Source: Rhizobiales bacterium Y(2018) (GTDB lineage Bacteria > Pseudomonadota > Alphaproteobacteria > Rhizobiales > Aestuariivirgaceae). Taken from it: 64,000 bases of DNA. The notes beneath the pieces are model-generated. The model worked only from the letters and a program-made list of their open reading frames with translations, searched no databases and was not told the DNA's origin. Below, in pieces: positions 14,293 through 17,026 of the stretch (position 1 is the first letter of the stretch; the number at the start of each line of letters is the position of its first letter). A program made the position numbers and the translations under genes. Location: the NCBI GenBank assembly GCA_005502925.1, contig SCPD01000021.1, positions 1 through 64,000 of the forward strand. Reading direction: 5' to 3'.

Positions 14293-14886
14293 CTAGGCCT
14301 TGTCGCACTCCGCATACCGGTCCACCACCCGCTGCAGCACCGGCACATAATGCCGGAAAGGCGGGGTCGCCATATCGGGGTCCTTGCCGCCCTCGTCCCA
14401 CAGCCTGACCCGCACGGCCTCCTCATAAAACGGATTGCGCCGGAACGCGGCCACTTCGGCATCGTTCATCGGCCCGCCCTGCAATTCGAGCGTATGGCGC
14501 GACGCGACGCTGAGCTTGCCGTAATAGCTCTCATCCGTGGCGCAGAGATAGCGTTTCGCCGCCACATGAAGGCGCACGCATTCGGTGATCACCGGCGGGA
14601 AGAAATGCTCGAGCACCTTGGCGCCCGCCTCGTCATGATGATTGTCCTCGGTATCGTCCGGCGAATAAGGCCCGAACTCGCTCGTGTAATGGCCGATATC
14701 GTGCAGCAGTGCCGCGGCGACGAGCTCATCGCTGGCGCCTGCGCGCTCCGCCAGCACCGCACCCTGCAGCATATGCTGCGACATGGTCACGGGCTCGCCC
14801 AGATAGGATTCGGCGCCGCGTCTTTCGAAGATGTCGGCGATGAAGGCGACGATCGAGGACCGGTCGAGGGAGAGCTCGCTCATCAC
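14293..14886 (-). CDS. tmpB: TmpB/PhnZ-type mixed-valent di-iron oxygenase
   Basis: Predicted to cleave the C-P bond of (R)-1-hydroxy-2-trimethylaminoethylphosphonate, giving glycine betaine and phosphate. The 197-residue HD-fold protein keeps the PhnZ-group layout: Tyr27 and Glu30 in SYLGEP, His37, His61-Asp62 in LLHDIGHY, His82/His83, His106 in LHVAAKRYL and Asp163 in RLWDEGGKD. The Tyr/Glu pair three residues apart and the spacings to the first His and to the HD pair equal those of PhnZ, which separates it from ordinary HD phosphohydrolases. It overlaps tmpA by ATGA, so the two are translationally coupled. Assignment as TmpB rather than another PhnZ homologue rests on the partner gene. Confidence 0.82.
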
Positions 14887-16034
14887 GCCGCCTCCTTCTG
14901 GCCATGCTCGATCGCGGCGAGTGTCGACAGCAGCCCGTCCTTGTCGGCGTAGCAGCCCTGGAGCCAGCGTGTGCCGGAGCTCGAGAAGGACTTGCGCGCA
15001 TGCAGCACGCGGGTGTTGTCGACGATGAAAAGCTCGCCCGGCTTGAGCTTGAAGGTCACCTCCATCGCCGGATCCTCGATGATCTCGGCGAAGCGGCGAT
15101 AGGCGGCATAGAAGCCCGCCATGTCGTCATAGGGAATGTCGGTGAAGGCGGACGCCGAGCGGTTGTTGAAGCGGATGGCGATCATCTCGCCATCGGGCCC
15201 GAGCTCGATCATCGGCCGCTTGGACTGGAGCCGCACCCCGGCCGCGCCCGCATATTCGAAACGGGCGCAATGGCGGCTGAGCAGCGCGAAGCCTTGTGGG
15301 TCTTCCGCGCGCAGCCGCTCCGCCGCGCGAAAGCCGTCGACCACCACCGAGTCGCCGCCATCGACCGTGTTCTCGAGACAGGCCAGCAATTGCAGCGTCG
15401 GCACCGGATCGCGATAGGGATTGTCGGTGTGCGCCTGGAGACCCAGGTTTGTATAAGCGAGATTGTTCGGATTGACCTCGGCGCGCACCTCGAACCACTT
15501 GCCGTAATTGGTCTCGCGCACGAAGCCGAACATCTCAGCGACATCGATGAGCGATCCGCTCTGCCGCGGCACGCCGGTCATCACGCCGAAGCCGAAGCGG
15601 CGGATCGCTGCCAGCCACTGGCCGAAAGCGGCGCGGTCGATTTTGCCCCGCTCATGCCCGATGACCGGTGTCTTCGCCTGAAGGCCCGCATCCCAGGTCT
15701 CGATCTCGGGCGCCAGCCAGCCGGCCTGGCGTGCCGGCGTTTGGTCATAGACATGCCGGGCAAGCCACGCCGCCGGATAGCTGACGCTTTTGCCCTCGGG
15801 CGCGAAGGTCGCCGTGAGATCGCCCGCGGCCGAGATCTCGGCTTTAGTGAGCTTTGTCTCCGCCGGAATGTCGAGCAAGGTGATCAGGCGCTGTCCGTTG
15901 GTGGCACTGCGTGTGGCGCCGTCCGGCGCATTGTCGCGCAGCCACAGCGCATGGAAGCGGGCGGTTTCGCCGGTGGTCCAGCCGAGCTTTACGGCTTTTC
16001 CATCATCGATCAGGGTCGCGGTCTTGAGGTGCAT
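14883..16034 (-). CDS. tmpA: TmpA-like Fe(II)/2-oxoglutarate dioxygenase
   Basis: Predicted to hydroxylate 2-trimethylaminoethylphosphonate at C1. The 383-residue protein has an N-terminal gamma-butyrobetaine-hydroxylase-type domain (about residues 5-95) and a TauD/TfdA catalytic domain with Fe ligands His202 and Asp204 (QAHTDNP) and His345 (RVLHARKSF), plus Arg356 for 2-oxoglutarate. The N-terminal domain lacks the zinc cysteines expected after WLRDN ([13 protein letters not shown]), unlike true gamma-butyrobetaine hydroxylases. The ATG at 16034 is chosen; another at 16067 is possible. It is usually misannotated as BbsG/BBOX. The four-base overlap with the PhnZ-like gene makes TmpA the best reading. 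Confidence 0.8.
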
Positions 16035-16129
16035 GTCGGTTTCCGTGGGTGATGAGCCTGCTTGCATCTTCAGTCACGGCTTGCCAGAATTCAAACAATG
16101 GTATTTTAGCCTTTGGCCATATTCTGATT

Positions 16130-17026
16130 ATGACAGACCGCGAGCTTTCCCCACCGCTGATCTGGCTGAAAGCCTTCGAGGCCGCCGCCCGGCATGCGAG
16201 CTTCACGCTGGCCGCCGCGGAGTTGGGCCTCACCCAGGCGGCGGTCAGCCAGCAGATCAAGGCGCTCGAAGGCCGGCTCGGCACCAAGCTCTTTCACCGC
16301 CGGCAGCGCGGCGTCGCCCTCACCCCCGAAGGCTCGGCCTATCTGCCCCATATCCAGCAGGCCTTTGCCGGCCTGGCGCGCAGCACCCAGGAACTGTTCG
16401 GGCGGCGTAGCCGGCCGACTCTGACGATCCTGTCGCCGATCTCCTTCGCCGCTTTGTGGCTGGCGCCCCGGCTCACCGCTCTGGAGCGCGAGACGGAAGG
16501 CCTCGCCATCGACATCACCACCATGCACACGCCCGACCATTATGGGGCGAGCACGGCGGTCTTCGACATCCGCTTCGGCCTCGGCGACTGGCCGGGCCGC
16601 ACCGCCTACCGCCTCACCACCGAAAGGCTGACGCCGGTCGCGGCTCCGGCCGCGCTAAAAGCCGGCCGGAAACCGGCGTCCGACATCTGGGAGCGCCTGC
16701 CCCTCCTCGCCGTGCATGGCGCGCGCGAAATGTGGCCCGACTGGTTCGCGCTGTCGGGCGAGCCGCCGCGCGGCGTGGCGCGCTATCGTTTCGACAGCTT
16801 CATCGCCGCTTTGAGCGCCGCCGAGGCCGGCGCCGGCATCCTCCTCGGCTCCCGCCCGCTGATCGACGGGGCGCTCCGCCGCAAGAGCCTGGTGATGCTG
16901 TCGAGCTTCGAGTTGCCCTCGACCGCCGGCCATTTCCTGACCCATGCCGCGGGGCGCAAGCTGAGCCCGGGCGAGACCGCCTTCCTCACCGCGCTCACCC
17001 GTGCCGCCGCCCCTGTTCTTGTGTGA
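16130..17026 (+). CDS. LysR-family regulator, GcvA-like, divergent from tmpAB
   Basis: A 298-residue LysR-type transcription factor with an N-terminal winged HTH (about residues 10-70: FEAAARHASFTLAAAELGLTQAAVSQQIK) and a C-terminal effector-binding domain. The ATG at 16130 starts about ten residues before the HTH, as usual; no clear Shine-Dalgarno is visible. It is divergent from tmpA across 95 bases, the classic layout for a LysR regulator controlling its neighbour. The likely inducer is the phosphonate or its product, which is inference. Confidence 0.9.
   Translation: MTDRELSPPLIWLKAFEAAARHASFTLAAAELGLTQAAVSQQIKALEGRLGTKLFHRRQRGVALTPEGSAYLPHIQQAFAGLARSTQELFGRRSRPTLTILSPISFAALWLAPRLTALERETEGLAIDITTMHTPDHYGASTAVFDIRFGLGDWPGRTAYRLTTERLTPVAAPAALKAGRKPASDIWERLPLLAVHGAREMWPDWFALSGEPPRGVARYRFDSFIAALSAAEAGAGILLGSRPLIDGALRRKSLVMLSSFELPSTAGHFLTHAAGRKLSPGETAFLTALTRAAAPVLV

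Follow-up and report, generated by a model that had tools for sequence, protein, structure and literature searches.

A tmpA–tmpB gene pair assigned to 2-trimethylaminoethylphosphonate degradation, with a divergent LysR-type gene, in a Rhizobiales bacterium

Two overlapping genes in a Rhizobiales genome encode a dioxygenase resembling gamma-butyrobetaine hydroxylase (BBOX) and a small HD-domain protein, which raises the question whether they serve carnitine synthesis or the degradation of a phosphonate and, in the latter case, of which phosphonate. In Leisingera caerulea, TmpA and TmpB carry out C1 hydroxylation of 2-trimethylaminoethylphosphonate (TMAEP) and subsequent C-P cleavage to phosphate and glycine betaine (PMC10574752, in the sections available to us), and PMC10590968 names this two-oxygenase route as the only one described for TMAEP. 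We analyzed a window of 64,000 nucleotides (the whole stretch of DNA examined here) and conclude that the locus represents the TmpA/TmpB pathway as characterised in L. caerulea, with a probability of roughly 0.94. The placement rests on the families to which the proteins belong, on their active-site residues, and on the linkage of the genes, and the two reactions are ascribed to the locus by analogy with the characterised homologues.

The ORF check assigned 394 and 197 amino acids to the two genes, which have the bases 14883-14886 in common, and a LysR-type gene diverges from tmpA (Table 1); a preliminary description made from the letters alone had given both the four-base overlap and this orientation. 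The regulator ORF is listed from 16049, and we adopted a later start, which gives a protein of 297 amino acids. Pfam domains were TauD and GBBH-like_N in tmpA, HD in tmpB, and HTH_1 and LysR_substrate in the regulator gene. The translation of tmpA probably starts at an internal ATG (Met12, position 16034), which aligns with its relatives. The iron triad is H213, D215, and H356 when numbered from the longest ORF, and the His202/Asp204/His345 of the preliminary description is the same triad, correctly numbered if Met12 is the start.

Table 1. Positions of the assigned and candidate features in the window
Feature	Positions	Strand	Basis
tmpA, predicted 2-trimethylaminoethylphosphonate (TMAEP) dioxygenase	14883..16067	-	NF049936, PDB 6npb, aligned start, residues
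tmpB, predicted HD-domain di-iron oxygenase for (R)-1-hydroxy-TMAEP	14293..14886	-	NF049941, PDB 6npa, nine ligand/substrate/family positions
LysR-type regulator, divergent, presumed for tmpAB	16133..17026	+	PF00126, PF03466, linkage to tmpA loci
Candidate LysR operator, ATTGTTTGAATTCTGGC, between tmpA and LysR	16083..16099	-	core TTTGAATT; lead only

The TmpA protein scored 565 bits against the NCBIfam TmpA equivalog NF049936 (release 20, as for the other equivalog models; cut-off 400, E 5.7e-170), the top of five families, and its nearest PDB chain was TmpA (6npb, 501 bits), followed at a distance by human BBOX (188 bits) and DfmD (133 bits). The phosphonate in TmpA is held by N187, N287, and R288, while human BBOX uses N191 and N293, according to the part of PMC9296572 available to us. 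Alignment with 6npb places these three TmpA residues at N202, N302, and R303 of the present protein, and the Arg position is Ala in human BBOX. N202, R303, and the His-Asp-His triad were found in all 92 TmpA-type rows, the window counted in, and N302 in 90, being replaced by Ser in L050 and L114. The full contact set was absent from each of the three BBOX-like control rows, although L058 aligns an Arg at 303 and L059 keeps N202. The three cysteines of the human BBOX segment NCPCSDC, whose positions were read from the aligned human sequence and which we take to be zinc ligands, lie opposite Ala, a gap, and Gly in the window protein, in agreement with the preliminary description, which had noted the absence of the zinc cysteines from the N-terminal domain.

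The TmpB protein scored 339 bits against the NCBIfam TmpB equivalog NF049941 (cut-off 300, E 5.5e-102), the top of four families, and its nearest PDB chain was TmpB (6npa, 255 bits), compared with 121-122 bits for PhnZ. An HD-oxygenase motif and a YxxE loop (Y30 and E33 in TmpB) are described in the accessible part of PMC8177086. The window protein contains the motif H...HD...H...H...D (H38, H62, D63, H84, H107, D164) and the YxxE loop (Y28, E31). Tyr28, Glu31, His38, His62-Asp63, His66, His84, His107, and Asp164 align in register with both TmpB and PhnZ, which confirms the earlier remark that the metal and Tyr/Glu positions are spaced as in PhnZ. All nine positions were kept in 87 of 87 TmpB rows.

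A contig scan returned at least 571 relatives. The best 80 of these and 19 of 20 further stretches, the twentieth being from contig C16 of the own genome, gave 91 tmpA loci besides the window, after removal of contig repeats (L060, L062, L125, L097, L137), BBOX-like loci (L053, L058, L059), and the window itself. Flanks were at most 5 kb for many of the 91 loci. The tmpB gene lies directly downstream of tmpA in 86 of them; the contig ends in two, and tmpB was not found despite room in three, namely L005 (848 bases), L052 (9.3 kb), and L114 (5.0 kb). The TmpA proteins of L052 and L114 are over the cut-off (545 and 544 bits). In a same-genus draft genome (L021:102-1228), tmpA matches in two pieces, and thus either the gene is broken or the draft contains an error.

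In a tree of 67 rows, 59 TmpA rows formed one clade (support 97/91) separate from eight BBOX-like rows, several of which sit on long branches and are unsurely placed; 36 of the 40 Mesorhizobium rows were omitted, and the window row grouped with its genus. The phylogenetic comparison suggested earlier thus came out for TmpA on the dioxygenase side. TmpA was over the cut-off in 19 of 60 genomes searched, its own genome counted, and seven plasmid records carry both proteins in adjacent genes at 58-65% identity. A distant adjacent pair is present on the plasmid of the actinobacterium Embleya (NZ_CP108785.1; TmpA 42%, HD protein 50% identical). On plasmid NZ_CP115240.1, a TmpA-like protein (36%) adjoins a distant HD protein (25%), which is perhaps a different dioxygenase-HD pair.

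Equivalog models, nearest structures, contact residues, tree position, and gene order therefore group the pair with TmpA/TmpB and apart from BBOX and PhnZ. That the dioxygenase is instead a true gamma-butyrobetaine hydroxylase making carnitine, beside an unrelated HD phosphohydrolase, would agree with its score on the older BBOX model TIGR02409 (454 bits, over the cut-off of 415) and with the gamma-butyrobetaine dioxygenase label on a plasmid homologue. However, the TmpA model beats TIGR02409 by 111 bits, the phosphonate-contacting Arg is present while the BBOX cysteines are missing, and the HD partner is itself a TmpB equivalog, directly linked in 86 of the 91 loci. We rejected BBOX on model score, residues, and linkage, and consider this reading scarcely credible. 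A pair acting mainly on another phosphonate, either 2-aminoethylphosphonate as in PhnY/PhnZ or methylphosphonate as in GmPhnY/GmPhnZ, is very improbable, if slightly less so. TmpB is indeed homologous to PhnZ and reaches 208.4 bits (208.1 in the genome-wide search) on the Phn-HD model TIGR03276 for the phosphonate degradation HD-domain oxygenase and 157 bits on the hydroxymethylphosphonate dioxygenase model. Both values are below the cut-offs (214.6 for Phn-HD), and they and the PhnZ score fall far short of the values for TmpB; moreover, no PhnY structure or model was found among the TmpA matches in PDB and NCBIfam, in which quaternary-amine dioxygenases rank first. The PhnY/PhnZ and hydroxymethylphosphonate pairs were thus rejected on scores.

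One flank of tmpAB and the LysR gene encodes a TPR/CHAT protein, an MFS protein, and cytochrome bd subunit I, and the other isocitrate dehydrogenase (icd), a GFA protein, and an Lrp/AsnC regulator; no phosphonate gene, transporter included, was found among the scanned neighbours in the window. Elsewhere in the genome, contig C16 carries phnG, phnH, phnI, phnJ, two ABC ATPases, a phosphonate-binding protein, and a permease. The statement that no C-P lyase or phosphonate transporter adjoins the pair accordingly stands for the neighbourhood only, and the phosphonate ABC genes of C16 are one candidate route of TMAEP uptake. The genome contains a single match to the BBOX model and a single match to Phn-HD, which are tmpA and tmpB themselves. 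No phosphonomutase was over the cut-off of 320 bits (four matches at 133, 123, 49, and 31 bits), which fits catabolism and not synthesis, and phosphonate biosynthesis was rejected on this ground.

A search for a common transporter beside tmpAB gave none outside Mesorhizobium, where every family other than TmpA, TmpB, and LysR was confined to 8 or fewer of 52 loci. The Mesorhizobium set makes up 40 of the 91 loci (L123, which bears no genus name, counted in; the Mesorhizobium locus L124 left out) and keeps the whole tmpAB neighbourhood; single families recur there in as many as 40 of 92 loci, a pattern that we read as synteny. Domains read in single proteins of other tmpAB loci were those of an ABC binding protein, an ABC ATPase, a TRAP binding protein, an aminotransferase, an FAD monooxygenase, a histidine kinase, a dehydrogenase, a phosphodiesterase-type protein, and an alanine racemase.

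Several neighbours recur in smaller groups of loci. The large TPR and CHAT-domain gene that adjoins tmpB in the window (10954-14082) is kept in three same-genus loci. An MFS_3 gene is present on the tmpAB strand in seven loci of the family including the window (9651-10901; L044:7294-8532; L045:4013-5263); it follows directly after tmpB in L044 and L045, and the CHAT gene intervenes in the window. Its product is a possible transporter, although the Pfam name points to export. In L046 (6270-8529), L055, and L056, tmpB is directly followed by genes for an ABC solute-binding protein and for an ATPase, identified by their domains in L046 alone, and the products possibly form a TMAEP importer. In four loci of Kiloniella, one of Nitratireductor, and a Labrenzia plasmid (for example L076:6787-7611 and L147:5673-6518), tmpB is followed in the same orientation by a gene of alkaline-phosphatase/phosphodiesterase type, whose product might release the phosphonate from an ester.

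A divergent relative of the window LysR was found in 66 of the 91 tmpA loci, and one locus lacked contig room. The other 24 had room yet yielded none, so that this LysR is not an obligate partner of tmpA. The query was the window protein (E <=1e-8), and the figure of 24 therefore counts loci in which no homologue of it was detected, not loci lacking every regulator. Outside the 91 loci, L006 and L008 have tmpB but no LysR in their 1.5-kb flanks, and L021 has the LysR gene and the start of tmpB at its contig end. The nearest LysR paralogue within the own genome shares 36% identity, compared with 40-94% for the LysR proteins beside tmpA in other loci.

The tmpA-LysR intergenic region, 98 bases long in the window, holds a sequence block common to the genus members. 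Dereplication of 67 such regions, by removal of six near repeats, left 61. TTTGAATT occurred exactly in 25 of these (200 shuffles: mean 1.1, maximum 5) and with at most one mismatch in 43 (mean 15.3, maximum 25), in a comparison that is not independent because the core was picked after viewing these regions; the 25 exact matches belong to two lineages only, the genus of the window and the Mesorhizobium clade. Upstream of the LysR-less tmpA genes, TTTGAATT was found exactly in none of 24 regions and with at most one mismatch in five, a control confounded with descent since these regions are mostly from other lineages. A clear near copy with one mismatch lies upstream of tmpA in the LysR-less locus L072. 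The site in Table 1 is the only one in the window at two or fewer mismatches, and because the pattern was derived from that site and its same-genus relatives, the zero expectation for the window scan is circular. The site is offered as a candidate LysR operator, as a lead only.

It is rather unlikely that the LysR gene is a mere neighbour that regulates icd or another gene. Its absence beside tmpA in 24 loci with room would fit such a role, as would the position of icd: this gene flanks LysR on the far side both in the window and in three loci of the genus, and it is next to tmpA in four family-level or related loci without this LysR. However, the divergent LysR accompanies tmpA in 66 loci, and icd is present within the sampled flanks of just three of them, those of the same genus; moreover, the intergenic region between the two genes contains the common sequence block.

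Control of tmpAB by this LysR is thus the preferred reading. In the proposed mechanism, TmpA, an Fe(II)/2-oxoglutarate dioxygenase, would hydroxylate TMAEP at C1, and TmpB, a mixed-valent di-iron HD oxygenase, would then cleave the C-P bond to yield glycine betaine and phosphate. The most likely role of the LysR protein is to sense the substrate or a product and to switch on tmpAB from the common intergenic region, a role in which we infer control, ligand, and operator alike. As a tentative extension, to which we give somewhat less than even odds, the LysR would be a dedicated sensor of TMAEP (or glycine betaine) from a conserved regulator subgroup with an operator centred on TTTGAATT; tmpAB would be induced by the substrate and not by phosphate starvation, and would supply osmoprotectant, carbon, nitrogen, and phosphorus in Hyphomicrobiales and related alphaproteobacteria. 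A literature search of partial depth, whose coverage did not extend to the original TmpA/TmpB study, returned no account of LysR control of tmpAB, and we do not claim novelty for this link.

The TmpA/TmpB pathway was already known, and the present locus adds another instance, which the preliminary description named correctly. Its expectation that automatic annotation would report a BBOX enzyme and an HD protein proved right in part: current NCBIfam models name both genes, whereas all three annotated plasmid homologues examined are labelled as gamma-butyrobetaine or TauD dioxygenase and HD-domain protein. The two genes thereby receive a well-supported name for their function, where some public plasmid records still carry those labels for homologues, and the same pair recurs across many alphaproteobacterial loci, plasmids among them. 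A simple rule is suggested to tell TmpA from the carnitine enzymes: the Asn/Asn/Arg contact set together with a directly following TmpB.

Among known systems, as far as they are described in the sources available to us, the closest is TmpA/TmpB of L. caerulea (6npb, 6npa), which has the same enzymes, two-gene operon, metal ligands, and substrate-contact residues; the organism differs, and the enzymes of the window are predicted ones. PhnY/PhnZ, which acts on 2-aminoethylphosphonate, follows the same two-step logic and has the same HD di-iron motif, but the window HD protein scores far higher on the TmpB model and structure than on PhnZ. BBOX has the same two-domain Fe/2-oxoglutarate architecture and the same trimethylammonium type of substrate, whereas the window TmpA has no N-terminal cysteines and possesses the phosphonate Arg and a TmpB partner. 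DfmD of dehydrofosmidomycin biosynthesis uses the same substrate as TmpA; it rearranges and desaturates TMAEP, whereas TmpA carries out a simple hydroxylation (PMC9296572).
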